A stretch of DNA of 64,000 nt, from positions 1 to 64,000 of the forward strand of contig DASXUN010000020.1 of assembly GCA_036504815.1 (NCBI GenBank), written 5' to 3'. The notes below the pieces were generated by a model. It worked only from the letters and a program-made list of their open reading frames with translations. It ran no database searches and was not told the origin of the DNA. How positions within the stretch are numbered: the stretch's first letter is position 1; each line of letters opens with the position of its first letter. Below, one piece after another: positions 1 through 14,870 of the stretch. The position numbers were made by a program, and so were the translations under genes. Source of the DNA: Gemmatimonadaceae bacterium (lineage in GTDB: Bacteria; Gemmatimonadota; Gemmatimonadetes; Gemmatimonadales; Gemmatimonadaceae).

Positions 1-111
1 GCGCGCGCCGACATCTTTGATTACATCGAACGCTTCTACAACCCCATCCGGAGGCACTCGACGCTTGGCAACAAGAGCCCGATCAACTTCGAGCGGGCGG
101 CAGTAGCTTAA
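1..111 (+). CDS. IS3-family transposase (OrfB), C-terminal fragment cut by window edge
   Basis: The reading frame is open from the window edge and ends at TAA. The last 36 residues contain the motif [15 protein letters not shown], the conserved tail of the rve (DDE) integrase domain of IS3-family OrfB proteins (family knowledge), just beyond the third catalytic acidic residue. The enzyme would catalyse copy-and-paste transposition of its element. Only the 3' end is visible, so intactness cannot be judged. The gene stops about 30 bases before the disrupted HEPN gene resumes. Confidence 0.8.
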
Positions 112-141
112 CTCACTGTCCACGCAACCCGGCGCAGCTCA
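1..141 (+). mobile_element. Right end of an IS3-family insertion sequence
   Basis: This covers the transposase tail plus about 30 bases after its stop codon. Bases 117-141 resemble the right terminal repeats of IS3-family elements as I remember them and end in CA, the usual terminal dinucleotide. Immediately after base 141 an unrelated HEPN reading frame resumes without a start codon, which is what an insertion into that gene would leave. The exact end is inferred: the left end and target duplication lie outside the window. Confidence 0.5.
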
Positions 142-479
142 ATCTCGTCGGACATGCAATTGAACTGTCCCTGAAGGCGCTCCTCCTGAAGAAGGGAGCA
201 ACCCTCCGAGGCATTCGCAAGTATGGGCATGCGTTGGAGAAGCTGTACGCCGCAGCCAGTGCTGTAGGTCTTGATGACCTCGTCGCGCTAACAGTCGAAG
301 AGCGTGCCACGATCGGTCACCTAGACATGCTGTACTCGACGAAGCAGTTGGAGTACATAGTCACCGGCGCCCGAACATACCCAGTACACGGGCCGCTGGA
401 GGCCGCGGCCCTCAAGATCGTAAACGCCATTGCTCCGATTGTAGGATATGCCAACAATCGTCTGCCGCATGCGATCTAA
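142..479 (+). pseudogene. HEPN-domain protein, 5' end lost to IS insertion
   Basis: The frame is open upstream of the first ATG (234) and already encodes recognisable HEPN sequence there: NLVGHAIELSLKALLLKKG, then GHALEKLY and a final helix with the pattern LDMLYSTKQLEYIVTG. HEPN domains are all-helical and occur in RNase toxins and nucleotidyltransferase partners of toxin-antitoxin modules. No Rx4-6H RNase motif is visible in what remains. The true start and first helix were removed by the IS. The stop TAA sits in the R'' box of an attC site, so the gene was cassette-borne. Confidence 0.65.
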
Positions 480-515
480 CCTGACGTTGCTGCTGACGAA
501 CGCCAGTCGTTATAC
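474..515 (+). other. attC-like recombination site 1 (after HEPN remnant)
   Basis: R'' is ATCTAAC (474-480, containing the HEPN stop) and R' is GTTATAC (509-515). Between them, CTGACGTTGCTGC can pair imperfectly with TGACGAACGCCAG. At 42 bp it is shorter than typical attC sites (about 57-141 bp). It shares the string TTGCTGCTGACG with the next site. The R' box is exactly complementary to the R'' box after the next gene. Confidence 0.55.
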
Positions 516-688
516 GGCTCTCGCTCCGCGCCTCCTTCCTGAAAGGTCGCTTGACTGGGCCACGGGCCTCCCACTAAATTGACACCGTCCTCATCGATGT
601 TCGCTTGGCGCACTTCCGCGTTAGCGTCCACGGTGTAGGGCAATCATCGGCGGTGCACTCATCGTGAGTCACTTGCCAAGGAGGCTCT
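516..688 (+). other. Cassette 5' leader upstream of the AIPR gene
   Basis: This is 173 bp without a supportable ORF. It contains a TTGACA hexamer (579-584), a possible -35, but no convincing -10 at the right distance. A strong Shine-Dalgarno, AAGGAGG, ends the leader. Cassettes are usually promoterless; this one has room for its own promoter, but I cannot prove one. Confidence 0.35.
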
Positions 689-1867
689 ATGTCGTCGTTT
701 CGATTTCCCACCAAGCAGTTCCGCTCGCTGCCTTCGCCGACAGGCAACTCCAAGCTCGGCGTCTTCTTTTCCCCCGCGGCCACGCTGCCGCGCGACCTCT
801 GGGACTGGCGCGAGGTGAATCCGCGCGAGGTCAACCGCCGAAGCTCTGTCTACAAGGCCATCGTGCAGACGCTCCGCGACGAACCCGGGCGCTTCCACGA
901 GCGTAACCGCGGTATCACCGTAGTCGCGGATGACCTGTCGTTCGACGACAAGCGGCAGGAGGTGATCCTCCATCTCAACGACCAAAGCCTGCACGGTGTC
1001 GTCGACGGCGGACACACGCTGGACGCGATCTTGGAGGCGCAGAAGTCTCCCCCGGAAAATGGCTGGCCTGCGAGCGTGTTCATTAAGGCGATCACCGGCG
1101 TGGAACCCGACCAGATTGCAGAGATCGCTGGCGGGCTGAACACGAGCCAGCAAGTCGACCTGAAGAGCCTAGAGAATCTCAAGGATCACTTTGCGGCGCT
1201 TCAGCAGGTCTTGGCCGACCATCCGTACGCAGAGCAGATTGCGTACAAGATGAATGAGGTCAAGCCGGTCGATGTTCGTGAGATCCTGTACTACCTTGCA
1301 GTGTTCGATTGCTCCGAGTACGACGAGAAACGGCATCCTGTTGCGCTCTTCGGACGGAAGGAAGGCATCGTCCGCCGCTTCGCTGAACAGGCCAAGGACT
1401 CGAAGGCCGGCGATTCGTTCAGCGTTCTCATCTCGAAGGCCCCTGAGATCCTGTGGCTTCGGGATACGATCGAGAAGCGCGCACTCAAGTTCAACATCGG
1501 ACGCTACAAGGTCGGAAAGGGCACGCGCGTGCGGAGCCAAAGCCACCGCGACAATCAGCTCGTTTTCCTCAATGAGCAGGTCAACGGCAAGATCCCGCTC
1601 GGGTGGATCATGCCGATGCTCGCCGGATTCCGCGCAAACGTCGATTGGAACAAGCCGAAAGGTACGTTCAGCTGGATCATGCCACTCGATGAACTCGTCG
1701 ATGCCTGTATTGAGGGCCTCATTCTGGGCATCCAGGACGTGCATGAGCAGGAGAACGCAAGGCCGGAGTACGTTGGGCGTAATTCGCTTTCCTGGCGCAT
1801 CAGCTACAATGTGGTGTCGCAGGCAATCCTCGAGCGCCAGTTGGCGCAGGCGAAGAAGGGCCGCTGA
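689..1867 (+). CDS. AIPR-family (abortive infection phage resistance) protein
   Basis: A 392-residue protein of the AIPR family (PF10592), named after lactococcal abortive-infection proteins and often found in phage-defence loci. Visible family hallmarks are ERNRGI (about 71-76) and HGVVDGGHTLDAIL (about 102-115), matching the 'NxGI ... VNGxQT' core, followed by an Asn-rich stretch GGLNTSQQVDL. There is no signal peptide or membrane segment. The ATG has a near-perfect Shine-Dalgarno AAGGAGG at 677-683. It is a single-gene cassette flanked by attC-like sites with exactly complementary outer boxes, and its terminator lies inside the downstream attC. The biochemical activity of the family is not settled; the defence role is inferred from family and context. 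Confidence 0.78.
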   Translation: MSSFRFPTKQFRSLPSPTGNSKLGVFFSPAATLPRDLWDWREVNPREVNRRSSVYKAIVQTLRDEPGRFHERNRGITVVADDLSFDDKRQEVILHLNDQSLHGVVDGGHTLDAILEAQKSPPENGWPASVFIKAITGVEPDQIAEIAGGLNTSQQVDLKSLENLKDHFAALQQVLADHPYAEQIAYKMNEVKPVDVREILYYLAVFDCSEYDEKRHPVALFGRKEGIVRRFAEQAKDSKAGDSFSVLISKAPEILWLRDTIEKRALKFNIGRYKVGKGTRVRSQSHRDNQLVFLNEQVNGKIPLGWIMPMLAGFRANVDWNKPKGTFSWIMPLDELVDACIEGLILGIQDVHEQENARPEYVGRNSLSWRISYNVVSQAILERQLAQAKKGR

Positions 1868-1880
1868 GAAGCAAGGAGCC

Positions 1881-1991
1881 GTATAACCAGCAATTGCTGC
1901 TGACGGCGCCGTAGGGTGGTAGCCGCTGGCGGGCCGAGCCCGCCAGCGGCATTCTTTTTCACGCGCCGCAGCAGAATTGCAGTCGTTAGGT
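1881..1991 (+). other. attC-like recombination site 2 (after AIPR)
   Basis: R'' is GTATAAC (1881-1887) and R' is GTTAGGT (1985-1991, fits GTTRRRY). The inner arms CAGCAATTGCTGCTGACGGCGC and its near-complement ending GAATTGCAGTC form a long imperfect hairpin with unpaired bases, the layout by which integron integrases recognise folded single-stranded attC. The variable loop contains an intrinsic-terminator hairpin. This is the clearest attC in the window. Confidence 0.72.
1922..1959 (+). terminator. Rho-independent terminator inside attC site 2
   Basis: A perfect 12-bp stem GCCGCTGGCGGG/CCCGCCAGCGGC (1922-1933, 1939-1950) with a 5-base loop is followed by ATTCTTTTT. It would end AIPR transcription and insulate the next cassette. 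It forms the variable terminal structure of the attC. Confidence 0.85.
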
Positions 1992-2001
1992 GGCCACCCT
2001 C

Positions 2002-3396
2002 ATGACCGGTAAACGAGTACGTGTGCGCCAAGCTGTGGTTGCCGCAATCACCGTCGGCCTGATCGGCACGTGCGTTGCCGTGAGGCCGGACCGTGCAATT
2101 CGAGTTGGATCGGCACTGGTGAGCCAGACGTTGTGCTCTGCAACTTTCGTTTCTGGCTTGTCACCTGATCGTGCCTACGCCACGACGCTTCGCCCGATGG
2201 GTCACCTTGACCTCCTGGACCCCGTGCTGCGGTACCGCGTCGACACGGTGACGGGCACCGTGAGCACGAGTGTGGCAGGCCTGTTTCGGAGCCGCGCCGT
2301 CCACCGATTTGGCGCTGGATGTGTTCTGCTCCACGGTAATCCCCCGCCGTCACTCCGCATCCAGCCTTTGCCTCCCGACTCAGCCGACTCAGCCGCAGTT
2401 GTGGAAACGCCGAATGACCGTGTCAGGGCCGTCCTGGATCGAGCGTTCTCTCGGCCCGAGCTGGCGACCACCGCCGTCGTCGTGCTGCATGGTGACTCGA
2501 TCATCGCTGAGCGCTACGCGTCTGGGTACGGAACCATGACGCGACTTCAAGGTTGGTCGCTCAAGAAATCAGTCATCAACGCCGTCGTAGGCATTCTGGT
2601 CCGCGAAGGGCGCCTGGATGTACACCAACGTGCGCCGGTCCGCGCCTGGAGCCGCTCAGGCGACCCGCGCCGCGCGATCACCGTTGACGACCTGCTGAGA
2701 ATGACGAGCGGCTTGGCGTTGCGGGAAACGAACTCGGGGTTCGATCCGGTATCGCGGATGCTCTATCTCGAGCGCGACATGGCGGCTTTTGCCGAGCTCG
2801 CGCACCTTGAAGCGCCACCGGGTAGTGAATGGCACTACAGCACAGGCAACACTGTCATCCTTGGGCGCATCATTCGTGATGCAGTCGGCGGGAGCGCCGA
2901 TGACGTCGCCCGCTTCGCGCGCGCAGCATTGTTCGCTCCGGTGGGCATGCGGACGGCCGTGCTTGAGTTCGACGCCACCGGCGTACCGATCGCGATGTAC
3001 GCGAGCGCGCGAGACTGGGCGAGGTTTGGTCGGCTGTTTGCGACTGACGGAGTCGTTGGAGTGCAGCGCATCTTGCCAGAGGGGTGGGTCACGTACTCGA
3101 CCACACCGACTTTGCAGTCCGGCTACGGTGCGGGTTGGTGGCTTGGAGGGCCGTCGTGGCGCCCCGACTGGCGGTTGCCGTCGGATGCCTTCTACGCCGC
3201 AGGTCATCTCCATCAAAAGGTACTGGTCATTCCTTCAGCTGGGATCGTCATTGCGCGTTTCGGGACCACCCACGCGCCCGACGATGGCCTCGGTGTTGTG
3301 GCTCAGGAAGTGCTCGGCGCGCTGCACCCACACAGCATCGCATCATCAACTCCGAAGGCAGTCGGAGTCAATGGGCCAAGGAACCCGTTCAAGTGA
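2002..3396 (+). CDS. Serine hydrolase, beta-lactamase/transpeptidase-like fold (cassette-borne)
   Basis: A 464-residue protein with an N-terminal hydrophobic segment (about 10-27), so probably exported or membrane-anchored. The catalytic SxxK is SLKK (Ser about 186), a Tyr motif YSTGN follows, and late in the domain GHLHQ replaces the KTG triad, as in 6-aminohexanoate-dimer hydrolase-type class C relatives. These cleave esters or amides by an acyl-serine route; the substrate is unknown. I prefer the ATG at 2002 because the in-frame GTG at 1990 overlaps the attC R' box. The approximately 100 residues before the catalytic domain are unusual. It is a cassette gene; its R'' box lies 8 bases past the stop. 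Confidence 0.82.
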   Translation: MTGKRVRVRQAVVAAITVGLIGTCVAVRPDRAIRVGSALVSQTLCSATFVSGLSPDRAYATTLRPMGHLDLLDPVLRYRVDTVTGTVSTSVAGLFRSRAVHRFGAGCVLLHGNPPPSLRIQPLPPDSADSAAVVETPNDRVRAVLDRAFSRPELATTAVVVLHGDSIIAERYASGYGTMTRLQGWSLKKSVINAVVGILVREGRLDVHQRAPVRAWSRSGDPRRAITVDDLLRMTSGLALRETNSGFDPVSRMLYLERDMAAFAELAHLEAPPGSEWHYSTGNTVILGRIIRDAVGGSADDVARFARAALFAPVGMRTAVLEFDATGVPIAMYASARDWARFGRLFATDGVVGVQRILPEGWVTYSTTPTLQSGYGAGWWLGGPSWRPDWRLPSDAFYAAGHLHQKVLVIPSAGIVIARFGTTHAPDDGLGVVAQEVLGALHPHSIASSTPKAVGVNGPRNPFK

Positions 3397-3403
3397 GTCG
3401 GCC

Positions 3404-3498
3404 ACCGAACTATGATTTAAGCTGCCGGCCGCACCGCAGCTCATCGCAATCACTGGCTGGCGGCGGTGCGGCCGCAGCTTAAGCCTTATCCGTTAGCC
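3404..3498 (+). other. attC-like recombination site 3 (after serine hydrolase)
   Basis: R'' is ACCGAAC (3404-3410) and R' is GTTAGCC (3492-3498, one base off GTTRRRY). The inner arms, 3417-3437 and 3463-3482, are perfectly complementary except for one extra C in the left arm, an extrahelical base of the kind attC sites use for strand choice. R'' complements the opening box of its own cassette (GTTAGGT) with one mismatch. Confidence 0.7.
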
Positions 3499-3522
3499 CG
3501 CTCACGTCCATCGTCGTCACGC

Positions 3523-3837
3523 ATGCCGCGTTGGTCCCGCGATGCCGCCGTTCTCCACCGCCGCTACCCCGACGAGCGCTGGGTCGGGTCGTGTTCGCGC
3601 GCCGACGCCGCGTTCCTGCTGCGCTACGATCACCATGTCGTTTGGGTCGGCGGGCGTCCGGCGCTGCTGCTGACCTACGCGTGGGCGGCCGCGGGGCTCG
3701 ACGCGCACGCGGAGCCGCTCGCGTTCGAGGTGAGCTTCACGTATCCTCGCGGGCACCGGGCGGCGCCGCGGGAGGTGCAGGCGGTGGTCGACCGGATCCC
3801 GTTCGCGCCGGCGGAACCCCGCGATCTCGCCGGCTAA
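3523..3837 (+). CDS. Hypothetical cassette protein (104 aa)
   Basis: A small soluble protein, rich in Arg and aromatic residues, with no signal peptide or membrane segment and no domain I recognise. The ATG at 3523 lies 25 bases after the R' box of the preceding attC, and the stop TAA is inside the following R'' box (GGCTAAC), a compact cassette layout. No strong Shine-Dalgarno is visible. A competing ORF at 3531 in another frame has a composition typical of a shadow frame. Orphan small proteins are common in integron cassettes. Confidence 0.5.
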   Translation: MPRWSRDAAVLHRRYPDERWVGSCSRADAAFLLRYDHHVVWVGGRPALLLTYAWAAAGLDAHAEPLAFEVSFTYPRGHRAAPREVQAVVDRIPFAPAEPRDLAG

Positions 3838-3928
3838 CGAATCGCTGACGCTGACGAGCTCGCGCATCCTCCCGACCGCATCCACAACTCCATCCCCGCG
3901 CGTTCGCAGCTTCGCTCAAGCGTTAGGC
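3832..3928 (+). other. attC-like recombination site 4
   Basis: R'' is GGCTAAC (3832-3838) and R' is GTTAGGC (3922-3928), a perfect GTTRRRY. The inner arms GCTGACGCTGACGAGCTCGCG and CGCGCGTTCGCAGCTTCGC pair imperfectly. R'' is the exact complement of GTTAGCC, the box that opened this cassette. Confidence 0.68.
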
Positions 3929-3944
3929 TGCATCAAGGATCCGC

Positions 3945-4439
3945 ATGACGCGTCCAACGTTCACCGTCGCAGGGGGATCCATGGGCGAATCTTCCGTGCC
4001 GCTCCCCGGTGGCCTCCCGTTCAGCGCTCGGCGCAACCATGAATCGCCTCCCGTTGTCGAACAACTCGGCTGGCGCTATCACCACATCGGCATTCCCACC
4101 ACCAAGGTCCAGGCCGACGAGACCCACCTTGAGCCGTTCGGGCTGTTCGTCTCCGGTTTCAGTGCCAGCCCGTACGGCATCGAGTGGATGCGCTTCGAGC
4201 AGGACAGCCCGCTACCCGAACTCATCCGCACCGTGCCGCACGTGGCGTTTGAGGTCGAGGATCTCGATACAGCACTCGAAGGCCAGCACGTCATCTACCC
4301 CCCCGGCTCTCCATCCGAAGGCGTACGCTCGGCCATGATCGTTCACAACGGCGCTCCGGTGGAGCTCATCTGGTTCCGCAAGCCAATGCCTTCTCCGGGT
4401 GAGCCTGAAGTCCCGCTTCGAAGCCCAGCGGACGCGTAA
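3945..4439 (+). CDS. VOC/glyoxalase-like protein (cassette-borne)
   Basis: A 164-residue protein with one vicinal-oxygen-chelate-type unit. The start YHHIGIP has the metal-ligand His typical of the first beta-strand, HVAFEV marks the second half, and the domain ends PVELIWFRKP with a ligand-like Glu. VOC enzymes bind a divalent metal and include glyoxalases, dioxygenases and antibiotic-resistance proteins; the substrate is unknown. AAGGA precedes the ATG at 3945 with good spacing; an internal ATG at 3981 is an alternative. The stop lies in the box GCGTAAC, which complements the opening box GTTAGGC with one mismatch. Integron cassettes often carry VOC-type resistance genes, but that role is not shown here. 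Confidence 0.75.
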   Translation: MTRPTFTVAGGSMGESSVPLPGGLPFSARRNHESPPVVEQLGWRYHHIGIPTTKVQADETHLEPFGLFVSGFSASPYGIEWMRFEQDSPLPELIRTVPHVAFEVEDLDTALEGQHVIYPPGSPSEGVRSAMIVHNGAPVELIWFRKPMPSPGEPEVPLRSPADA

Positions 4440-4501
4440 CCAAGCGTTGCGCACACAGTACCCACGCGCAGCTCGGAGTGGGTACGCTATTTTCGGTTAC
4501 C
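4434..4501 (+). other. Degenerate attC-like end / terminator hairpin after the VOC cassette
   Basis: It begins with R''-like GCGTAAC. A hairpin GTACCCAC...GTGGGTAC (4459-4490 region) followed by GCTATTTTC could terminate transcription. The only candidate right box is GTTACCA near 4496, which does not fit GTTRRRY. I read this as the decayed or terminal site of the array. Confidence 0.4.
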
Positions 4502-4531
4502 ATCGTCCCCCCCCGAAAAGGAGCATCTTCG

Positions 4532-4993
4532 ATGACCAAGGTGACACCCTTCCTGATGTTCAACGATCAGCTCGAGGCGGCGATGGAGTTTTACACCGCC
4601 ACGTTCCCTGACTCCCAAATCAGGAACGTCGCCCGCACGGGCAAGGACGGTCCAGTCGCGTCCGCCGAGTTCGTCGTCGGTGGTCAGGCCTTCATGGGCT
4701 ACAACGGGGGTTCGTACTTCTCCTTCTCCGAAGGCTTCTCCCTCTATGTTGACTGCGCCGACCAGGCGGAAGTCGACGAGTATTGGGACAAGCTCGTCAA
4801 GGCCGGCGCGACGCCGACGGCGTGCGGCTGGATCAAGGATCCGTTCGGCCTCTCCTGGCAGATTGTCCCGCGGCGATTCATGGAGCTGATTCGCGACAAG
4901 GATCCCAAGAGAGTGAAGGCCGTGATGGAGGCCATGATGACGATGGTGAAGCTCGACGTGGCGGCCCTTGAGCGCGCCTACAATGAGGCGTAG
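4532..4993 (+). CDS. PhnB-like VOC protein (3-demethylubiquinone-9 methyltransferase-like domain)
   Basis: A 153-residue protein of the PF06983 type. MTKVTPFLMFNDQLEAAMEF is the family opening, followed by a GQAFMGYNGG segment and the closing DPFGLSWQIVPRRF motif. Despite the family name these are VOC-fold proteins of mostly unknown function, not methyltransferases. The ATG at 4532 has AAAGGAG 8 bases upstream and was chosen over the upstream in-frame start at 4478, which would run through the terminator. It is followed after 34 bases by a SnoaL-like gene. No attC-like site follows, so it lies outside the cassette array. Confidence 0.82.
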   Translation: MTKVTPFLMFNDQLEAAMEFYTATFPDSQIRNVARTGKDGPVASAEFVVGGQAFMGYNGGSYFSFSEGFSLYVDCADQAEVDEYWDKLVKAGATPTACGWIKDPFGLSWQIVPRRFMELIRDKDPKRVKAVMEAMMTMVKLDVAALERAYNEA

Positions 4994-5027
4994 CAGGCTG
5001 AAACGCCCGCGTCGTGGAGGGTAGCAG

Positions 5028-5417
5028 ATGTCCCCTGAGGAACAGAGCATCCGTCACGTTCATTCAACCTGGATCCGCGCCGTCAATGCTGGCGATCTGG
5101 CGCGCTTGCTCACGTTGATGACGGACGATGTGGTGTTTCTCACTCCGGGCCAAGCGCCGGTTGGCCGCGAAGCGTTTCCGGCAGGCTTCTCGACCGCCCA
5201 CCAGCAGTTCCAGGTGCTTTGTGTCAGCGAACTGGAACGGATCGTGGTTGTCGGCGACGTCGCCTATACCACTTGCCGTGACTCGTTGTCCACGACACCA
5301 CGCGCCGGAGGAGAAACGACGGTGCTCGCCGGACATCGGATGACCATCTACCGCAAACAGTTGGACGGTCGTTGGCTCCTGGCTGCCGATGCCCATACGC
5401 TGACTTCGGAACCTTAG
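5028..5417 (+). CDS. SnoaL-like/DUF4440 nuclear transport factor 2-fold protein
   Basis: A 129-residue protein with the pattern of the SgcJ/EcaC/DUF4440 group: an N-terminal helix with WIRAVNAGDLARLLTLMTDD, then VVFLTPG and a C-terminal strand set with the end GRWLLAADAHT. The NTF2-like cone fold binds small hydrophobic ligands; some members are isomerases or cyclases, many have no known activity. GGAGGGTAGCAG precedes the ATG. It is cytoplasmic, with no signal peptide. It is probably co-transcribed with the PhnB-like gene. Confidence 0.78.
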   Translation: MSPEEQSIRHVHSTWIRAVNAGDLARLLTLMTDDVVFLTPGQAPVGREAFPAGFSTAHQQFQVLCVSELERIVVVGDVAYTTCRDSLSTTPRAGGETTVLAGHRMTIYRKQLDGRWLLAADAHTLTSEP

Positions 5418-5449
5418 ATTTCACACCTCCACTCGCCTCTCACCACGCC

Positions 5450-6964
5450 ATGAACACTCGCACGCTCGCCGCGGTCGCGGTCCTCGTCGCCGCGCAGTCC
5501 GCGCACGCGCAGCAGACACCGCTTGACGGCTTCGACGCATACGCCGCCAAGGCCATGGCCGACTGGCGAGTGCCCGGCATGGCCATCGCCATTGTGAAGG
5601 ACGACCAGGTTGTCTTCTCGAAGGGCTTCGGTGTCCGCGAGCTGGGCAAGCCCGAGCCGGTCACCGAGCACACCCGCTTCGGCATCATGTCCACCACCAA
5701 GGCGTTCACCACGATGCTGCTCGCGATGCTCGCGGACAGCGGCGCGCTGTCGCTGGACGATCACGTCAGCAAGCACCTCCCCACCCTCCAGTTTTCCGAC
5801 CCATACGTCACGCGCGAAGCCACGGTGCGCGATCTCGTGACGCATCGCATTGGCTTCGCGGATCCTGGCTATCTGTGGGCCGAGAGCGGCCTGACGTTCG
5901 CGCAATTGTACGACCGCGTGCGCCTCGTGCCGGCGCAGACGAGTTTCCGTTCGCACTACGCATACAACAACGTGAGCTACGCGCTGGCGGGTGAAGTGGC
6001 CGCGCGCGCCGGCAAGTCCAGCTGGCAGTCACTCACGAGCGCGCGCATCTTCACGCCGCTCGGCATGAGCGAGAGCTTCGCCGACGCGGCGCTCATGCTG
6101 GCCGCCGGCACCAACGACGTGAGTGCGCCGCACGGCATCGTGCGCGACACCGTGCGACGACTGCCGGTGGCGCCGGGCGTGGTGGACAACGTGGCCCCCG
6201 CCGGCGCGACGTTCTCCAACGTGGTCGACATGGCCAAGTGGATGCGCTTCCTGCTCGACTCGGGCCGCGTCAACGGCAAGCGGCTCGTCAGTGCGGCGCG
6301 CTTCAACGAACTCTGGACGCCGCAGACCGTCATTCCCCAGCCGGACTTCTACCCGACCACCACGCTCACCAAGCCGCACTTCACGGCATACGGGCTCGGC
6401 TGGTTCCTTGAGGATTATCGCGGCGAGTTCGTCGTCTTCCACACCGGCAGCATCGAGGGACGGACGGCGATCGTCGGCCTCCTGCCCGAGCGCCGGCTCG
6501 GCATAGTGATCTTCACGAACCTCGATCACAGCGAGGTGCGTCACGCGCTCATGTACACGGTGTTCGATCGCTACATCGGCGCGGAGGCCAAGCCGCACGA
6601 CTGGAGCGCCGAGCTGCGCGCGATGTACAAGACTTTCTCCGACAGCGCCCTCGCTCGGCAGAAGCGAGCGGACGAGAAGCGCGTCCTGGGAACCAGGCCG
6701 TCGCTGCCACTCGACAAGTACACGGGCGCCTACGCGGATCCGCTCTACGGCAACGCCACCGTGCGCATGGCGGACGGGAAGCTGACGATCACCGTGGGCA
6801 CGTCGAGCGGAACGCTGGAGCACTGGCACTACGACATATTCCGCGCGACATGGGACGATTCGTTCAACAGTCCGGCGCTCGTGTCGTTCGTCCTCGACGC
6901 CGATGGCGCGGTCGGCGAGGTACGGCTTCCCGGATCGCCGCTCAGGTATCGCCGCACCAAATAG
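5450..6964 (+). CDS. Secreted serine hydrolase (beta-lactamase family) with C-terminal DUF3471-like domain
   Basis: A 504-residue protein with a signal peptide (residues 1-20, cleavage after AHA). The catalytic domain has SxxK as STTK (Ser81), a YNN tyrosine motif and FHTGS in place of KTG, the set seen in class C-like penicillin-binding/esterase proteins. The last approximately 110 residues resemble the DUF3471 beta-barrel domain often fused to these enzymes. It is periplasmic, with the substrate unknown (peptide, ester or beta-lactam). The start was placed at the ATG giving a clean signal peptide; the open frame extends 78 bases upstream into the preceding gene. Confidence 0.87.
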   Translation: MNTRTLAAVAVLVAAQSAHAQQTPLDGFDAYAAKAMADWRVPGMAIAIVKDDQVVFSKGFGVRELGKPEPVTEHTRFGIMSTTKAFTTMLLAMLADSGALSLDDHVSKHLPTLQFSDPYVTREATVRDLVTHRIGFADPGYLWAESGLTFAQLYDRVRLVPAQTSFRSHYAYNNVSYALAGEVAARAGKSSWQSLTSARIFTPLGMSESFADAALMLAAGTNDVSAPHGIVRDTVRRLPVAPGVVDNVAPAGATFSNVVDMAKWMRFLLDSGRVNGKRLVSAARFNELWTPQTVIPQPDFYPTTTLTKPHFTAYGLGWFLEDYRGEFVVFHTGSIEGRTAIVGLLPERRLGIVIFTNLDHSEVRHALMYTVFDRYIGAEAKPHDWSAELRAMYKTFSDSALARQKRADEKRVLGTRPSLPLDKYTGAYADPLYGNATVRMADGKLTITVGTSSGTLEHWHYDIFRATWDDSFNSPALVSFVLDADGAVGEVRLPGSPLRYRRTK

Positions 6965-7029
6965 TGATCGCGCACATCGGCTCGAGTGCAAGCTACCGAG
7001 CAACTGGCGCTGGACTTCACGGAGACAGC

Positions 7030-7506
7030 ATGACGGTGAAGCGCATGGACAACGTCGGCATCGTGGTGGAAGACCTCGATGCCGCCGTCGCATTCTTCAC
7101 GGAGCTCGGCCTCACCCTCGAGGGTCGGATGCCCATCGAAGGCGACTGGGCCGGCCGCGTCACCGACGTGCGCGACCAGCGTGTCGAGATCGCAATGATG
7201 CGCACCCCCGACGGCCACAGCCGCCTGGAACTGTCGCGTTTCAACGCCCCCGCCATTGCGTCCGACCACCGCTTGGCGCTCGTGAACTCACTGGGATACC
7301 TGCGTGTCATGTTCGCCGTCGACGACCTCGACGATACCTTGGCCCGACTCAGCAGGCTCGGCGCGACGGTGGTCGATGAGGTCGTCAACTACGAGGACAT
7401 CTACCGACTCTGCTACATCCGGGGTCCCGAAGGCATCCTCATCGGCCTTGCCCAACAGCTTGGGACGCAGGCGTCACGAGAAGATCCCGCGAAGAGCAAG
7501 CGCTAA
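7030..7506 (+). CDS. VOC-family protein (glyoxalase/bleomycin-resistance type)
   Basis: A 158-residue protein. MDNVGIVVEDLDAAVAFF is the classic first betaalpha unit of VOC proteins, and LGYLRVMFAVDDLDDTLARL starts the second. The end, YIRGPEGILIGLAQQL, supplies the closing metal-ligand-type Glu. Expected to be a metal-binding cytoplasmic enzyme or drug-sequestering protein; the substrate is unknown. GGAGACAGC precedes the ATG. It ends 4 bases from a convergent AHSA1-like gene, so transcripts from the two strands overlap. Confidence 0.85.
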   Translation: MTVKRMDNVGIVVEDLDAAVAFFTELGLTLEGRMPIEGDWAGRVTDVRDQRVEIAMMRTPDGHSRLELSRFNAPAIASDHRLALVNSLGYLRVMFAVDDLDDTLARLSRLGATVVDEVVNYEDIYRLCYIRGPEGILIGLAQQLGTQASREDPAKSKR

Positions 7507-7510
7507 CTTC

Positions 7511-8002
7511 TCAACGTTTCATCCCGATCACGTGCGCAACGAACTGGTCGACGGCCATCTCGGTGCCCTGGTAGAAACCCGACGCCTTGTTCGTCTCGAG
7601 GTCCGCGGCGTTCCGGTGTAGCGCCGTGAAGACGTAGCGCGTGCCGGTTCCCGCCGCTTCCATCGTCACGATGGCGGTGATCGGGATGTCGTCGAAGACG
7701 GCCGGGCGATACCCGGGGAACAGCATCGAGGTCCAGACGAGCCGTTCCATCGGCACCACATCCAGGAAGCAGCCGAGGTTGGGCGCTTCCGGACCGTCGC
7801 CCACGGCGATGTCGATGCTGAAGATGCCGCCCGGCCGCACGTCCATCTCGGCGCGCACCACACGCCCCCACGGCTTGGGCATGTACCACTCCTTGAGGTG
7901 CTCCGGCTTCGTCAACGCTTCCCACACGAGCCGCGGCGGCGCGTCGATGAACCGTTCGATGGCGAAGTCGAGCGTCGGGTCGAAGGCGAATTGCTTGCGC
8001 AT
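7511..8002 (-). CDS. SRPBCC/AHSA1-family protein
   Basis: A 163-residue START/Bet v1-type protein. FAIERFIDAPPRLVWEALT and LKEWYMP match the AHSA1 opening, and GFYQGTEMAVDQFVAHV the closing helix with the family 'GW..l.kL' position altered. The fold forms a hydrophobic ligand pocket. The start is 5 bases beyond the stop of the ArsR gene, so the pair forms an operon, a very common ArsR-AHSA1 pairing. The ligand and role are unknown. Confidence 0.85.
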   Translation of the reverse strand: MRKQFAFDPTLDFAIERFIDAPPRLVWEALTKPEHLKEWYMPKPWGRVVRAEMDVRPGGIFSIDIAVGDGPEAPNLGCFLDVVPMERLVWTSMLFPGYRPAVFDDIPITAIVTMEAAGTGTRYVFTALHRNAADLETNKASGFYQGTEMAVDQFVAHVIGMKR

Positions 8003-8006
8003 CGGG

Positions 8007-8339
8007 TTACTCCCTCTTCGTGAGATGTTTGACGTATTCGTCGAACCGGTCGAGTCGCGCTTCCCACACCCGACGACGCGCGGCCAGCCAGTCTTCGACG
8101 ACCTCGAGACGTTCGGGGGCAATCTCATAGGTCCGCACACGCCCGCACTTGCTGGATCGCACCAATCGGCTCCGTTCGAGCACCGACAGGTGCTGCACGA
8201 ATGACGGGAGCTGCATGTCGAACGGCGCCGCCAGTTCGCTGACCGTGGCGGGGCCCGCCGACAGTCGCTCCAGGACCTTCCGCCGCGTCGGGCTGGACAA
8301 GGCGGCAAAGACTGCGTCCGTAGCTGCGGATTGAACCAT
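8007..8339 (-). CDS. ArsR-family winged-helix transcriptional regulator
   Basis: A 110-residue protein with an HTH in the order SPTRRKVLERL, then TVSELAAPFDMQLPSFVQHLSVLERSRLV, then the wing KCGRVRTYEIAP. The CxCxD metal site of ArsR itself is absent (only a lone Cys in SSKCG), so it belongs to the non-metal ArsR subgroup that partners AHSA1 proteins. It likely represses its own operon: an inverted repeat overlaps the -35 of the predicted promoter upstream. Confidence 0.88.
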   Translation of the reverse strand: MVQSAATDAVFAALSSPTRRKVLERLSAGPATVSELAAPFDMQLPSFVQHLSVLERSRLVRSSKCGRVRTYEIAPERLEVVEDWLAARRRVWEARLDRFDEYVKHLTKRE

Positions 8340-8384
8340 TTCCGACCCCTTCCCCGTGTCTGGGTTACCTGACCTGCCTGAGGG

Positions 8385-8426
8385 ATACTACAACGGTGCA
8401 ATACTTTTGTAAATACCTAAGTATTG
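8385..8426 (-). promoter_or_regulatory. arsR promoter with overlapping operator-like inverted repeat
   Basis: On the minus strand TTTACA (8413-8408) and TAGTAT (8390-8385) are separated by 17 bases. The inverted repeat CAATACTT (8399-8406) / AAGTATTG (8419-8426) straddles the -35, a natural operator for ArsR autorepression. The AT-rich island stands out in GC-rich DNA. Confidence 0.6.
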
Positions 8427-8451
8427 GCAGACCGGCAAGTCGGCAGTAGTG

Positions 8452-8473
8452 GTCCGGACCGATCGGTCCGGAC
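8452..8473. promoter_or_regulatory. Perfect 22-bp palindrome, candidate operator
   Basis: GTCCGGACCGA is followed directly by its exact reverse complement. It lies between the divergent arsR promoter and the haem-binding-protein operon, 90 bases before that operon's first ATG. Length and symmetry suit a TetR-type or other dimeric regulator. No cognate regulator is identified. Confidence 0.45.
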
Positions 8474-8562
8474 GATTTCCCGCCTTGGCGCGGCCAGCTT
8501 ATCGGCCGTTCACCGTCGCGATGCCGCTCATCGCGATGCCACCCGTCAAAGCGAGGAGTCCC

Positions 8563-9057
8563 ATGAGATCGATCATGCAGCGCGCAGTCATCGCGGTCAC
8601 CGCCGGTGTCCTGGTCGCGGCCGCGGTCGTTCGTCCCGCCAGCGCCCAGGGCGCATCCGAGGCCAGTCGCTCCATCCAGGCACAGCCCGGCACGTCGCGC
8701 CCGCTGGCCGCCGTGCTCACCCGCTCCTGCGGCGACTGTCACTCCCGCACGATGGCGCCGGGGTGGTACACGAAGGCGCCGCTCTTCTCCACCATCATGA
8801 CACGCGCCGCCCGCAAGGGACGCAAGTCCGTCGACTTCTCGGAGTGGACCGGCTACTCGCCCGACCAGCAGCGTGCCTTCCTGGCCGCGTCGTGCGCCGA
8901 CGCGACCGCCGGGACGATGCCGATGCCGGCGTACCTCCGCTTCCGCCCCGAGGCGCGGCTGTCGCCCGAGGACATCGCGACCATCTGCTCGGCCTCCCGC
9001 TCCAACGCCATCACCACGGCGGCGAGCGCGCCTCAGCCGGCGGGGAGGATCCCGTGA
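8563..9057 (+). CDS. Secreted haem-binding-domain (cytochrome c-like) protein
   Basis: A 164-residue protein with a signal peptide (about 1-29, ending ASA^QG). A single haem-attachment motif CGDCHS (about residue 64-69) and the following WYTKAPLF fit the 'haem-binding domain' family (PF14376). Two further Cys in ASCAD and TICSAS may form a disulfide. It is periplasmic, perhaps an electron carrier. GAGGAG precedes the ATG. It is first gene of a five-gene operon in which all later genes overlap by 4 bases. Confidence 0.78.
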   Translation: MRSIMQRAVIAVTAGVLVAAAVVRPASAQGASEASRSIQAQPGTSRPLAAVLTRSCGDCHSRTMAPGWYTKAPLFSTIMTRAARKGRKSVDFSEWTGYSPDQQRAFLAASCADATAGTMPMPAYLRFRPEARLSPEDIATICSASRSNAITTAASAPQPAGRIP

Positions 9058-9548
9058 ACGCGTCCGGGCAGACCATGACGCTCCAGCAGAAGGTCGACGA
9101 CTTCCTGGCCCAGGAGCGCATCGCCGTCGCCGGGGTGTCGCGCGACAACTCGCACCACCCCGTCGGCAACCTGATCTACCACCGGCTGAAGGCGAGCGGT
9201 CATCTCGTCTTCCCCGTCAGCCCGCACCTGACGACGTTCGCGGGAGAGCGCTGCTATCCCGACGTGGCGTCGATTCCGGGCGGTGTGAGCGCGGTGATGA
9301 TCATCACGCGCCCGGAGGTCACCGAGCAGGTCGTGCGCGACTGCTACGTGGCCGGCGTCCGCCGCGTGTGGATGCACCAGTCGCTCGCCAAGGGATCGAG
9401 TGTGTCCCATGACGCGGTGATGTTCTGCCGCGAGCACGACATCCGCGTCATCGCCGGCGCGTGCCCGATGATGTTCGGCCCAGGAGTGGACCTGGGACAC
9501 GCCTGCCTTCGCCTCTACCTCAAACTCACCAGAGGGCTGCCCACATGA
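9054..9548 (+). CDS. CoA-binding-domain protein (YccU-like)
   Basis: A 164-residue Rossmann-type protein. RIAVAGVSRDNSHHPVG is the nucleotide-binding opening, then VFPVSPH, a MIITRPE strand and RRVWMHQSL, matching the PF13380 CoA_binding_2 pattern. The closing GACPMMF also fits. The GTG start at 9054 overlaps the upstream stop (GTGA) and has GGGAGGAT before it; an ATG at 9075 is a weaker alternative. The physiological ligand and role of these small proteins are unknown. Confidence 0.8.
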   Translation: MNASGQTMTLQQKVDDFLAQERIAVAGVSRDNSHHPVGNLIYHRLKASGHLVFPVSPHLTTFAGERCYPDVASIPGGVSAVMIITRPEVTEQVVRDCYVAGVRRVWMHQSLAKGSSVSHDAVMFCREHDIRVIAGACPMMFGPGVDLGHACLRLYLKLTRGLPT

Positions 9549-10051
9549 CACGCCGCCAGATTGCCTGGATTCTCCTCCTCATCGTCGACATCGGATACGT
9601 CGCGTGGGGCGCGGCTGCTGCGCTCGCGCCCGATCAGCTCCTCGGTCCGGGGGGAAAAGCCATTCTCCCCGCGGGCTACGAAGGCTTCTCCGGCGCCTCC
9701 TGGTCGGCGCTTGCCGCGTCCGCCACCGGATACATGACCGTGCTGTATCGCCTGCACGGCACCAACTGCGTGCTCTTCGGCTTCATGGGGAGCGCCGTTA
9801 CCCTCACCGCGTTCCGCCGCGGCGAACGCTGGGCGTGGTGGACGCTGCTCATTGGCCACACGCTCGCCCTTGGCTCGGCGATGACGTACGACAAGGTGGT
9901 GAACGCCATCGGGCCGTTGGAGCTGACGGAATACCTGGGGCTGTTCCTGGTCTGGAGTGCGTTCGCGATCTCCGCGCCGAGTCGCGCGTCCGGGCGTTCG
10001 CGGCCTGTCGCGGGGCCAGGCGTGACGCAATTCGCGGGGCGCGCCCGATGA
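9545..10051 (+). CDS. Four-helix integral membrane protein of unknown function
   Basis: A 168-residue protein with hydrophobic segments at about 6-26, 55-75, 85-105 and 130-145, typical of small DoxX-like or DUF4345-like inner-membrane proteins, though I cannot assign a family. A charged tail of about 25 residues follows. It overlaps the preceding gene by ATGA and the following gene by 4 bases, so translational coupling is likely. Confidence 0.65.
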   Translation: MTRRQIAWILLLIVDIGYVAWGAAAALAPDQLLGPGGKAILPAGYEGFSGASWSALAASATGYMTVLYRLHGTNCVLFGFMGSAVTLTAFRRGERWAWWTLLIGHTLALGSAMTYDKVVNAIGPLELTEYLGLFLVWSAFAISAPSRASGRSRPVAGPGVTQFAGRAR

Positions 10052-10878
10052 AACTCGAGATCATCTCCCGCTTTCCGGCGGGAGACGAGCGCCCCACGCC
10101 GCTCCTCTTTGTTCACGGCATGCTGCACGGCGCCTGGTGCTGGGCGACGCATTTCCTGGACTGGTTCGCCCGCCGTGGCTTCGCATCGTACGCTGTCAAC
10201 CTGCGCGGCCACGGCGAGAGCGAGGGGCGCGATCGTCTGCGCTGGACGCGCATCGCCGACTTCGTGGACGACGTCGCGAGTGCGGTGGCGCAGCTGCCGC
10301 GGCCACCCGTGCTGATCGGCCATTCGATGGGCGGTTTCATCATCCAGAAGTACCTCGAGCGACACGACGCACCCGGCGCCGTGCTGCTCTCGACGCCGCC
10401 GCCGTCGGGAATGCTGCGGGCGATGCTCCGCGTCGCCCGCCGTCGTCCGCTGCTCTTCACGCGGATCATGGCGACGCAGCGGGTGTCATCGCTGGTCGCG
10501 ACGCCCGCGCTGGCACGCGAGGCGTTCTTCTCGCCGGATTTCCCGGAGAGCTCGCTGCGACGGTGCTGGCAGTTGATGCAGGACGAGTCGTTCAGGGCGC
10601 TGCTCGACATGGCAGGGCTCGATCGGCCGAACGCGGCTGCCGTGAAATCGCCGCTGCTCGTGCTGGGCGCCGAGCGAGACGCCATGCTCTCGCGCGACGA
10701 CATCGAGGCCACGGCGCGTGCCTATCACACGGCGTTCGAGATCATTCCGGGCGTGGCGCACAACAGCATGCTCGAGCAACGCTGGGAGTCGGTGGCCGAA
10801 CGGATCCTGGCGTGGCTCACCGCAGAATCACATCGAGACGAACTCTTAGACGTTCTTGCCAAGGGAGGCATACGATGA
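10048..10878 (+). CDS. Alpha/beta hydrolase
   Basis: A 276-residue protein with the full hydrolase-fold signature: LLFVHGMLHGAWCW (oxyanion region), nucleophile elbow GHSMGG, the LLVLGAERDAML strand carrying the acid, and the catalytic His in GVAHNSM. There is no signal peptide. Expected to be a cytoplasmic esterase or lipase-like enzyme; substrate unknown. It is fourth in the operon with 4-base overlaps on both sides. Confidence 0.87.
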   Translation: MKLEIISRFPAGDERPTPLLFVHGMLHGAWCWATHFLDWFARRGFASYAVNLRGHGESEGRDRLRWTRIADFVDDVASAVAQLPRPPVLIGHSMGGFIIQKYLERHDAPGAVLLSTPPPSGMLRAMLRVARRRPLLFTRIMATQRVSSLVATPALAREAFFSPDFPESSLRRCWQLMQDESFRALLDMAGLDRPNAAAVKSPLLVLGAERDAMLSRDDIEATARAYHTAFEIIPGVAHNSMLEQRWESVAERILAWLTAESHRDELLDVLAKGGIR

Positions 10879-11678
10879 CACGCTCGCGCTTGATGAACAC
10901 GATTGCAGTGGCCGTCGCCCTCATCCCGGCGATGGCGAGCGCGCAGCGCCGGCCCAGGCTCCACGTGAATCCCAGGTGGAAGGAGTGCTCCATCCAGCTC
11001 GATTCGTCGCTCACGCAAGCGGCCTGGCGCCAGTTCACGGAGGAGGCGGCGCAGGTGCTGTACTTCCGCCCGCTCGCCGACGCGCGGCCTATGGGGCGTG
11101 GCAAGTTCGAGTTCGCGTTCATGCAGTGGCAGACGAACGTCGATGACCGCGATGCCGCCTGAAACGACACCTTCGTGCACCCGGATTCCCTGCACTGGCT
11201 GTATGAGGGGAGCGGTCTGCAGTTCCCCGGACTCGCGTTCCGCGCCGGCCTGACGTCGTCGAGCGACGTGGGGTTCTACTTCACGAGGAACATTCAGGCC
11301 AACTACGGGGCGTACGGGGCGCAGGTGCAGCAGCACCTCGTTCGCTTCGCGGGCGAGTGGGATCTGTCGGCGCGGGCGAGTTTCGTCTCGCTCTTCGGGC
11401 CGGAGGACGTCGACCTCAAGGTTTACGGAGGCGATATGGTCGCGAGCTGGAAGGGGTGGACGTACGCGCGGGCCTCGTTGGTGCCCTACGCGGCCGTCGC
11501 CACGTACCTCGCGCAGTCGCACCAGAAGTCGACGGTGGTGACGCTGGCCGACGAACGTGCGCTCGGTATGATGACCACGGTCGGCGCGCAGCTGCAATAC
11601 GCGGCGGTGCGCATCGGGTGGGAGGCGACCTTCGCGCGGGTGCCTTCGGTCTCGATGAAGTTCAGCGTCGGCCGGTAG
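10875..11678 (+). pseudogene. Outer-membrane beta-barrel-like protein split by an in-frame TGA
   Basis: The 5' part (10875-11162) encodes a signal peptide (cleavage near SAQ) and a Trp/Gln-rich segment. A TGA at 11160-11162 interrupts it, and the same frame stays open for 171 further codons to TAG at 11678, with alternating hydrophobic/aromatic strands and a C-terminal barrel-like end (MKFSVGR). The whole 267-codon frame reads as one secreted protein. No alternative start with a Shine-Dalgarno follows the stop. The options are a nonsense mutation, stop readthrough or a sequencing error. It is last in the operon. Confidence 0.7.
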
Positions 11679-11697
11679 CGTCAGGCGTCGCCTGACG
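11679..11697 (+). terminator. Short hairpin after the barrel gene
   Basis: CGTCAGGC / GCCTGACG with a 3-base loop starts immediately after the stop codon. It has no T-tract, so it may be an RNA-stabilising or weak termination structure. Confidence 0.4.
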
Positions 11698-11737
11698 ACA
11701 GGCTGGTCGAGGTGAGCGGCGCGCACGGGCCGCTCTG

Positions 11738-12961
11738 GTGCGGTTCGCCATGCCCAATACCTTTTGCGGCATGGCGAGCCTCACCCTCGACCTCGTCCAG
11801 GTCGCCGCGATCATCGGCGCGCTGCAGGGATTGTTGCTCGCCGGCGTCCTGATTGCGCAGCGCAGCAACGTCACGGCTAACCGGTTGCTCGCGGCGTTGA
11901 TGGCGACCTTCAGCGTCTATTTCGCGTGGGGCCCGTACTACACCGCCGGGCTCTATCGCGTCTATCCGCACTTCATTCTCGTCTCCTACCTGACGCCCTG
12001 GGTCTTCGGGCCGCTGGTCTATCTCTACACGCGCGCCGCCAGCGACCGATCGTGGCGCTTTGGCCAACGCGAGTTGCTGCACTTCGCGCTGGTCACTTTG
12101 GTCTTCCTCCTGGCCCTGCCCTTCTTCACCAAGAGCGGCGCCGAGAAGATCGCTCTCTGGGATGCCTGGGGCGCGACCGGCGGGCCGGATGATCGCCGCG
12201 TGGGGCCGCCGCTGCGCTACATCGATCCCCTCAAGTACGTCTCGGGGATCGCGTACTCGGCGGCGACGGTGCTCTACCTGCTCCGCCACCGGCATGACGT
12301 CGAGCACAGCTACTCCAACCTCGCCCGCGTCAATCTCCGCTGGCTCGTCTGGTTGAGCAGCGCGACAGGCGGCATCTGGCTGCTGGCTGCCGGACTGGTC
12401 TACCTGCAGGTTCGCGTCAGCCTGCGCGACGCCGACATCACGTTGGCGATGGCGCTGCTCGTGTACGCCATCGGCTACATGGGGCTCCGCCAACCGGAGA
12501 TCTTCCGGCTCGCCGCCGTCGAGGTCCCGGTCGTCAATACGGCTGAGTCAGGAGAGGCGGCGGCTCCGGACGCGACGGCCAAGCCATCGCCGGAGCGATC
12601 CGGTCTCGGAGAAGACGAGGCGCGCCAGCTCGAGACTACATTGCTCGCGGCGATGGAGCGCGACCAGCCCTGGAAGAACTGTGAACTGACGCTCCCCGAG
12701 CTGGCGGCGTGCCTCGACACGACGACGCACAAGCTGTCGGAAGTGCTCAACGCGCGGATGGGCCAGACGTTCTACGATTTCGTGAACGGCTATCGCGTGC
12801 GCGAGGTGCAGCGGCGCATCAAGGCCGGCGACGCACGCGCCCTGAAGATGCTGGCGCTCGCCATGGACGCGGGCTTCGCCTCGAAGTCCACTTTCAATGA
12901 TGTGTTCAAGAAGCAGACGAACCAGACGCCGTCGAGCTATCGCCAGGCGGTCGGCGGTTGA
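11738..12961 (+). CDS. Membrane-anchored AraC-family transcriptional regulator
   Basis: A 407-residue protein from the GTG start. About seven hydrophobic helices occupy roughly residues 15-245, resembling 7TM sensor modules. A low-complexity linker (about 260-300) follows, then an AraC-type HTH domain over the last approximately 100 residues (LAACLDTTTHKLSEVL... FASKSTFNDVFKKQTNQTPSSYR). It probably senses a membrane or external signal and binds DNA from the membrane. Alternative starts are ATG 11750 and ATG 11771; the last gives the usual short N-terminus before helix 1. The target is unknown. Confidence 0.85.
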   Translation: MRFAMPNTFCGMASLTLDLVQVAAIIGALQGLLLAGVLIAQRSNVTANRLLAALMATFSVYFAWGPYYTAGLYRVYPHFILVSYLTPWVFGPLVYLYTRAASDRSWRFGQRELLHFALVTLVFLLALPFFTKSGAEKIALWDAWGATGGPDDRRVGPPLRYIDPLKYVSGIAYSAATVLYLLRHRHDVEHSYSNLARVNLRWLVWLSSATGGIWLLAAGLVYLQVRVSLRDADITLAMALLVYAIGYMGLRQPEIFRLAAVEVPVVNTAESGEAAAPDATAKPSPERSGLGEDEARQLETTLLAAMERDQPWKNCELTLPELAACLDTTTHKLSEVLNARMGQTFYDFVNGYRVREVQRRIKAGDARALKMLALAMDAGFASKSTFNDVFKKQTNQTPSSYRQAVGG

Positions 12962-13001
12962 CGCCGGCAGTCGCGGCGTCATTTGCCGGAGCTGAGAGAC
13001 C

Positions 13002-13619
13002 TTGACCAGACCGACCACGGGCTTGGTATACCTGCACGAGATCGTGCTGCCGGGAGAGCCGTCCGGCGGCCGGCATCTTTGCGTCTGCCTGTCGACCGCC
13101 GAGTACGCCGAGGAGACCGGCCTCGCGGTGATCGCGAGCCTGCGGAAGATCCGAAGCACCTGGTGGCGGCCGCTGGTGGACCGCGACGACTTCACGCCCG
13201 TCGGCGCATTCGAGCCGCTCGACCAGCCGCGGGCGGTGGACACGTCGCAGATGGTGTCGGTGCCCGTCACCTCGCTCACGTCGCTCGCCGGACGCGTCTC
13301 GGAGCGCGTGGTGACCGACACCATGGAAGTCCTGCCCGCGCTCTTTCAGTTGCGTGGCCCCTGGGAGGTGCGCGGCGCGGTGCACCGCATCCATGGCTGG
13401 CCGGAGGGGACCGACGCCGTCCTCGTGCTGAACGACGACGCGCTCGACAACCCCTCGGTGCGATACTTCCTGGCGGTGCCCTACGAGGAGGGCGACTGGC
13501 GCAAGGCGCTGGTGCTCATCAACGCCGAGGATCTCGGCGAAGAGGTGCGTGTACTCAGTGATGCGGAGCAGGTGCTGTTGAGCAAGGACCTGCGAAGCAT
13601 CTTCCCGCTGCCGGGCTGA
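13002..13619 (+). CDS. Hypothetical protein (205 aa)
   Basis: An acidic soluble protein with no signal peptide, membrane segment or family I recognise. It starts at TTG (13002) preceded by GCTGAGAGACC; no strong Shine-Dalgarno. Coding character is supported by GC3 bias and by the dense antisense and shifted frames lacking sensible composition. Motifs such as MVSVPVTSLTSLAG, LRGPWEVRG and VLNDDALDNPSVRYFLAVP suggest an alpha/beta domain. It follows the membrane AraC gene in the same orientation, 40 bases away. Confidence 0.6.
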   Translation: MTRPTTGLVYLHEIVLPGEPSGGRHLCVCLSTAEYAEETGLAVIASLRKIRSTWWRPLVDRDDFTPVGAFEPLDQPRAVDTSQMVSVPVTSLTSLAGRVSERVVTDTMEVLPALFQLRGPWEVRGAVHRIHGWPEGTDAVLVLNDDALDNPSVRYFLAVPYEEGDWRKALVLINAEDLGEEVRVLSDAEQVLLSKDLRSIFPLPG

Positions 13620-13656
13620 CGAGACTGGTGCGGTCCCCCCCCTCAAGGAGCACGCA

Positions 13657-13746
13657 GTGTCCAAGGTCATCGCATTGATGTCCATGTCGCTCGACGGTTA
13701 CGTCGCCGATGGCCGGGCCACTCCCCCGAGGAGATCCGGGCGATGA
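13657..13746 (+). pseudogene. Remnant of a dihydrofolate reductase/RibD-C-type gene
   Basis: After AAGGAG, the GTG start opens VSKVIALMSMSLDGYVAD, the conserved N-terminus of the RibD C-terminal/dihydrofolate-reductase family. After GYVADGR the frame degenerates and stops at TGA. Another frame then reads HSPEEIRAMKDAIAGTEPIDD to a TGA at 13784, perhaps the tail of the same or another gene. About 150 expected residues are missing, so an internal deletion is the simplest reading. Confidence 0.6.
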
Positions 13747-13853
13747 AGGACGCCATCGCCGGAACGGAACCGATCGACGATTGAGCGGTACACGCGCCGA
13801 CGGGACGCGACGCGCCGACCGACGGCATTCTCACTTGACCATTCACTCCACTC

Positions 13854-14315
13854 ATGACCGCTTCCATTCTCGTGCGCGCGATTCAGCAGGGCGACTATGA
13901 GGCCTGGCTCCCGCTCTGGCATGGCTACAACGCGTTCTACGGCCGCAGCGGCGCGACGTCACTTCCCGAGGAGATCACCCGGACGACGTGGCACCGCTTC
14001 TTCGAGCCGAGCGAACCGGTGCATGCGCTCGTCGCCGAATCGGACGGCAAGGTGGTGGGGTTGGTCCACTACCTGTACCATCGCAGCACGACACGGATCG
14101 AGCTCACCTGCTACCTGCAGGACCTGTTTACGGCGGAGAGCGCGCGCGGTCGCGGCGTGGGACGGGCGTTGATCGAGGGAGTGTACCAGGCGGCGCGAGC
14201 GGCGGGGATTCGGCGCGTCTACTGGCAAACGCACGAGACGAATGCCGCGGGTCGCCTACTGTACGACAAGGTGGCCCGGCACGCGGGTTTCATTGTGTAC
14301 GCACAGGACGTCTAG
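13854..14315 (+). CDS. GNAT-family N-acetyltransferase
   Basis: A 153-residue single-domain acetyltransferase. ILVRAIQQGDYEAWLPLW is the opening helix, YLQDLFTAESARGRGVGRAL holds the acetyl-CoA-binding R/QxxGxG/A loop (RGRGVG), and WQTHETNAAGRLLYDK is the typical motif B segment with a conserved Asn and Tyr. The substrate is unknown. It follows the DHFR remnant by about 70 bases. Confidence 0.87.
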   Translation: MTASILVRAIQQGDYEAWLPLWHGYNAFYGRSGATSLPEEITRTTWHRFFEPSEPVHALVAESDGKVVGLVHYLYHRSTTRIELTCYLQDLFTAESARGRGVGRALIEGVYQAARAAGIRRVYWQTHETNAAGRLLYDKVARHAGFIVYAQDV

Positions 14316-14380
14316 CACTTGCCCGTCGAATAGCGCCATACTGTAGAATGTTGCCCGACCCTCGGCGGAGGATTCCGGTG

Positions 14381-14785
14381 ATGCGTCGCACACTGATGAC
14401 GGCAGCGCTGCTCGGGGCGATCGGGACCGCGCCGCCACTGCTCGCGCAGGCGGTCACGGCTAATGCCGTCCCGACTGTCGCCGGAAACCTTCGGTTGATG
14501 CAGGCCATGCGCGAGCAGCTGAGCGTCGGCTACGCGCCGCAGCGCCAGCCAACGTGGCTCCTCCAGCAACAGGGTCCGGACCGGCCGCTTGTGCGCCAGT
14601 TGGTGACCGTACCCGACAATCCGGCGGCGCCGCCGCCGCTCGCCGAGTCGCGCCAGTGTCCGATGCCGGTCGTCTCGGTCGACCCGAAAGGGCTCGCGCC
14701 GATGCCAGTCGCGCGCGCCGACACGGCGAAACTGGAACGGATGCTTGTCGCCCGATCATCGTGCGTGAATCCGCTGGCGCGGTGA
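14381..14785 (+). CDS. Secreted hypothetical protein
   Basis: A 134-residue protein with a signal peptide (about 1-23, ending LLAQ) and a Pro/Gln-rich mature part with two Cys (SRQCPMPV, RSSCVNP) that could pair. No known domain. GCGGAGGAT precedes the GTG/ATG pair at 14378/14381; either could be the start. Expected to be periplasmic or extracellular. Function unknown. Confidence 0.6.
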   Translation: MRRTLMTAALLGAIGTAPPLLAQAVTANAVPTVAGNLRLMQAMREQLSVGYAPQRQPTWLLQQQGPDRPLVRQLVTVPDNPAAPPPLAESRQCPMPVVSVDPKGLAPMPVARADTAKLERMLVARSSCVNPLAR

Positions 14786-14870
14786 CCCGCTCTGACCGCC
14801 CCGTGATCCCACGCCGTTAGCCTTTCCTTCACCGAGTCAACGATGCCCCCGTCATCAATCCGGCACGCAC

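Follow-up and report, generated by a model that had tools for sequence, protein, structure and literature searches.

The window analysed here is a 64 kb stretch of DNA, positions 1-64000 of contig C20 and its left end, so that the array described below sits at a contig end. The cassette genes of this array all lie on the plus strand, in tandem with four attC sites. Sites were scored with R2, an attC covariance model made from a structural alignment of 43 attC sites of relatives with zero window sequence (A2 is likewise window-free), and E values were computed for the 757 kb searched. The features are as follows, all on the plus strand.

1-141, plus strand: right end of an IS3-family element, also the end of C20; transposase C-terminus at 1-111 (PF13333 rve_2, above cut-off) and terminal inverted repeat at 126-141
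142-479, plus strand: HEPN-like ORF fragment (153-479), the 3' part of a truncated cassette; weak PF05168 HEPN match (E 0.056, below cut-off); stop in R''
474-515, plus strand: attC 1, short (about 43 bases); R2 24.0 bits, E 0.01; R' pairs exactly with the R'' at 1881
689-1867, plus strand: cassette 2 gene, AIPR-domain protein of abortive-infection type (PF10592, E 8e-27; weak matches to AbiU/MzaE)
1881-1991, plus strand: attC 2; R2 64.2 bits, E 2e-13
1990-3396, plus strand: cassette 3 gene, serine beta-lactamase-fold family (PF00144, E 6e-24)
3404-3498, plus strand: attC 3; R2 28.9 bits, E 5e-4
3522-3837, plus strand: cassette 4 gene, small protein of no known family (no Pfam, PADLOC or NCBIfam match); stop in R''
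3832-3928, plus strand: attC 4; R2 43.6 bits, E 6e-8
3945-4439, plus strand: cassette 5 gene, an ORF glyoxalase/VOC-like by eye only, no Pfam match; stop in R''
4434-4460, plus strand: R'' and L''-like remnant of a truncated last attC at the array end, GCGTAACCAAGCGTTGCGC; no R2 match

Each window cassette from the second onwards opens with a GTTNNNN box and closes with a complementary NNNNAAC box. Read from the sequence, the boxes of cassette 2 (GTTATAC at 509-515, GTATAAC at 1881-1887) and of cassette 4 (GTTAGCC at 3492-3498, GGCTAAC at 3832-3838) are exact complements, and a single mismatch occurs in those of cassette 3 (GTTAGGT at 1985-1991, ACCGAAC at 3404-3410) and of cassette 5 (GTTAGGC at 3922-3928, GCGTAAC at 4434-4440). 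An earlier note on this DNA had described these four pairs, two exact and two with one mismatch, and all are present. The stop codon, TAA, falls within the R'' box in three of the five window genes (477-479, 3835-3837 and 4437-4439). A covariance search of the kind proposed in the earlier note returned exactly four attC sites in the 64 kb window at E ≤ 0.05 with R2, all on the plus strand, although by score alone attC 1 is marginal. Past 4440, neither the R2 search nor the sequence revealed a complete fifth attC, and the R''/L''-like remnant stands there alone. A strict RYYYAAC/GTTRRRY scan had given zero matches in the window because the boxes here are degenerate; it was superseded by a relaxed scan and then by the covariance models. 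RF04001, considered as a possible attC family, proved not to be one, and the Rfam search gave sub-threshold chance matches only.

Circular cassette integration predicts that R' of one site should pair with R'' of the next, and this cassette-wise complementarity is what we observed. Across the four variable bases, R'(n) and R''(n+1) paired perfectly in 76% of 88 neighbouring site pairs from the window genome and its relatives, compared with 9% for R' and R'' of the same site. Matches across cassettes numbered 323, against a mean of 195 and a maximum of 220 in 10,000 shuffles. Together with the four sites found by the window-free model, this pairing bears out the claim of an integron cassette array. 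In an alignment of related attC sites that takes in three window sites (A1), 89% of the helix cells were paired and 154 cells had changed on both sides (59 in shuffles), a value that 0/500 shuffles reached. Two columns of the 5' arm of the attC alignment (16 and 23) are unpaired, in agreement with the extrahelical bases claimed previously. Known attC L'' arms likewise carry unpaired bases.

Could these inverted repeats instead be ordinary intergenic hairpins, such as terminators or REP-like elements, between unrelated chromosomal genes? The presence of a terminator-like hairpin in attC 2 speaks for this, as does the bottom-strand folding suggested in the earlier note, which held for only half of the sites: attC 2 and attC 3 folded far better than shuffles as single strands (z -7.6 and -5.5), whereas attC 1 and attC 4 did no better than shuffles under a plain energy model (z -1.3 and +1.4). 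Against it stand the attC model matches, the cassette-wise box pairing, the extrahelical columns and the stops inside R'', as well as the patchy occurrence of the genes (the AIPR gene is present in 3/179 family genomes), none of which would be expected of terminators. The matches to a window-free attC model and the pairing across cassettes refute the ordinary-hairpin reading, to which we give next to no credence, and leave the sites as attC sites of a cassette array.

Among the cassette genes, the AIPR gene is plausible defence-type cargo by its sequence, having a strong match to PF10592 and weak, partial PADLOC matches to AbiU and MzaE; PADLOC gave zero matches for the other window cassettes. 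Its leader carries a weak promoter-like site (551-580) with a scan score close to chance. No convincing attC was found beside the AIPR relatives in two other genomes (G047 and G025), so these relatives give no example of the gene in a cassette outside the window. At 1922-1950, the loop region of attC 2 contains a GC-rich hairpin of 13 pairs followed by ATTCTTTTTC, which resembles an intrinsic terminator; attC 2 may therefore also end transcription of the AIPR cassette.

An integron integrase gene is present on another contig of the same genome, C27. It is the sole above-cut-off match to the family in the genome (C27:1155-2096, near the left end of the contig; TIGR02249, 420 bits). The predicted IntI aligns end to end with the VchIntIA structure 2A3V, through the IntI-specific extra region, with R, K, HxxR, H and Y in place, and thus appears from its sequence to be full, with catalytic residues intact. 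Its best named relative, 85% identical, comes from a Gemmatimonas sp. MAG, which agrees with the Gemmatimonadota host proposed in the earlier note. On the 3' side of intI lies a putative attI, conserved among genus relatives as TCTAATCGTC|GTTA and followed by variable cassette sequence; the 3' flank of intI is kept in the genus up to TCTAATCGTCGTTA and diverges beyond. Such conservation up to the crossover, with variation beyond it, is expected of attI. The first cassette past attI holds an ORF (138-890 of C27, minus strand) of no Pfam family and meets an IS3-type element where the contig ends. Both attI and the first cassette sit 3' of intI in the same direction as the integrase gene, which is the reverse layout. 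In at least four genomes of the genus, glnS adjoins intI. A sigma-70 scan between intI and attI found nothing, which says little for this phylum. Between the two also lies a palindrome of about 35 bases that is kept in the genus, TGATAGGTnGGC...GCnGnCTATCA (L007:905-1075, minus strand). The C-terminal tail of IntI, roughly 50-60 residues, is conserved, and its DNA contains another inverted repeat, AGGCTGAC...GTCAGCCTAAC (L007:905-1075, minus strand).

C20 and C27 each start about 140 bases inside opposite ends of an IS3-type element, and the exact 16-base terminal repeat of this element occurs in the whole genome only at C20:126-141 and C27:125-140. In two genus relatives that have no intI at the locus (G174 and G114), the two flanks are direct neighbours, ordered and oriented as predicted: homologues of window 19.3-30.4 kb directly precede the gene next to glnS (of window 28.5-19.3 kb in G174 and of window 30.4-23.8 kb in G114). 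Because of this unique repeat pair and the flank synteny, we infer, with good support, that C20 and C27 are linked through the IS. If the contigs join in this way, intI and attI would lie upstream of the window, where the earlier note had proposed to look for them. Inspection by eye found no target-site duplication around the IS, and the cassettes on its two sides are truncated; a deletion or rearrangement linked to the IS is therefore likely at the array. Window positions 4.4-19.3 kb are likewise extra compared with the intI-less relatives (4441-19300 is absent between the flanks in G174), and the variable region is therefore larger than the cassette array.

Taken as one locus, the window array is very probably the distal part of a single chromosomal integron, sedentary and of reverse (inverted-integrase) type, judging from the sequence evidence of an intact IntI, a conserved attI, four attC sites, cassette-wise pairing and the absence of intI at the locus in some relatives. 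The inferred order would start with glnS and its neighbour gene and continue through intI and attI to a first cassette, which the IS3-type element cuts; beyond the IS would follow the truncated HEPN-like cassette, the AIPR and beta-lactamase-fold cassettes, the small-protein cassette and the last one. As is known of integrons, IntI would recombine the folded bottom strand of an attC with attI or another attC, and circular cassettes would enter beside intI, oriented as intI is. Later the IS would have split the array, probably together with a neighbouring deletion.

The earlier note saw no integrase and considered a relic or a CALIN. In the second form, the array would have no physical link to the intI of C27 and would persist by chance or be supplied in trans. 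In favour of this, no contig carries both intI and the window array, and the genome does contain two more attC clusters without an adjoining intI, one of five sites at 172.9-176.6 kb of C4 (L089:12870-16624 = G000:C4:172869-176623) and one of three sites at 427.7-429.4 kb of C21 (L090:10688-12443 = G000:C21:427687-429442), most of whose sites were also recovered by the window-free model. These two clusters are CALIN-like, as the window array probably is not. Two findings make a CALIN in the window improbable: C20 and C27 break off within opposite ends of a single IS, with just two exact copies of its terminal repeat in the genome, and the intI-less relatives have the flanks adjacent, in the order and orientation predicted. 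An intact intI and a conserved attI would be separated from the window only by an IS, and the suggestion that the array lacks an integrase does not hold if the contigs join as proposed. The reading as a split reverse integron is accordingly the one we retain.

We then asked how common this layout is in the phylum. An IntI match at E ≤ 1e-60 was found in 148/395 sampled Gemmatimonadota genomes, and one above the curated cut-off in 138/395, about a third. Among arrays that could be scored, i.e. those with attC sites detected near intI, 56/57 were reverse, with the array 3' of intI and co-directional, and 200/200 sites were consistent. The nearest intI loci of other phyla in one database scan comprised 24 divergent and 6 reverse cases (6/30). 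The attC model was trained on sites from the 3' side of intI, so a model-free check of orientation was made via assembly breaks. For 44/74 minus-strand intI genes the contig start, on their 3' side, was no more than 2 kb away, compared with 3/76 plus-strand genes, for which the contig start is the 5' side (Fisher p 2e-14). This concentration of assembly breaks 3' of intI fits arrays on that side. The only scorable divergent (classical) integron of the phylum is in G346 (L062, G346:C347).

One orientation change suffices on a tree of the 88 IntI whose orientation was scored. The divergent IntI, that of G346 included, all fall to the same side of a branch with an SH-aLRT of 98. Monophyly of the reverse Gemmatimonadota IntI was not rejected (AU p 0.60). 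Being unrooted and quickly made, the tree is silent on which layout is older. The IntI of G346 groups with divergent IntI of other phyla, which suggests a separate acquisition of this integron. Overall, the survey suggests that an IntI lineage keeps its integron orientation stably.

One review lists Gemmatimonadota integrons (PMC8618304), Treponema is known to have the reverse layout (PMC3607928, PMC7691350), and another review names an inverted integrase group of IntI (PMC10500605). As in the Treponema denticola reverse integron (PMC3607928, PMC7691350), the locus is chromosomal with attC arrays and gene stops inside R'', a stop position also known from a reverse-integron cassette (PMC7691350); the two differ in phylum, and here glnS adjoins intI and an IS splits the array (our tree is without Treponema IntI). 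Like the inverted integrase group, the IntI studied here is on the reverse side of the tree's single change, with Planctomycetaceae and a Synechococcus, whereas Gemmatimonadota make up most of the members in the present survey, a weight that depends on sampling. The IntI family, attC architecture and cassette chemistry are shared with classical integrons (class 1; Vibrio, Xanthomonas, Chloroflexota, cyanobacteria), in which, unlike here, intI and cassettes diverge from attI. Gemmatimonadota integrons and the reverse group are both already known. The phylum-level orientation pattern is the more interesting result, and in the openly licensed literature searched we found no report of the reverse layout in Gemmatimonadota or of its near-fixation there.

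It is conceivable, though we rate it slightly below an even chance, that Gemmatimonadota are a main reservoir of a single old reverse-integron lineage in which cassette expression may be coupled to integrase transcription. If so, the use of newly captured genes may also be coupled to integrase transcription and not opposed to it, as it is in class 1. The locus adds an intI-attI-attC set from a phylum abundant in soil and water and outside the usual study organisms, and the phylum offers many natural cases for studying cassette expression and integrase regulation in reverse integrons. Assembly breaks at ISs and arrays can make complete integrons resemble integrase-less clusters.

Among the genes at the C4 and C21 clusters are those for a GNAT, a protein of beta-lactamase fold, a DUF6933 protein and an mREase_II-like protein. 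The C21 cluster lies among genes with PADLOC matches (mREase_II, PD-T7-4 and PDC-S41), and it is the Schlafen-type helicase (PDC-S41) that adjoins it.
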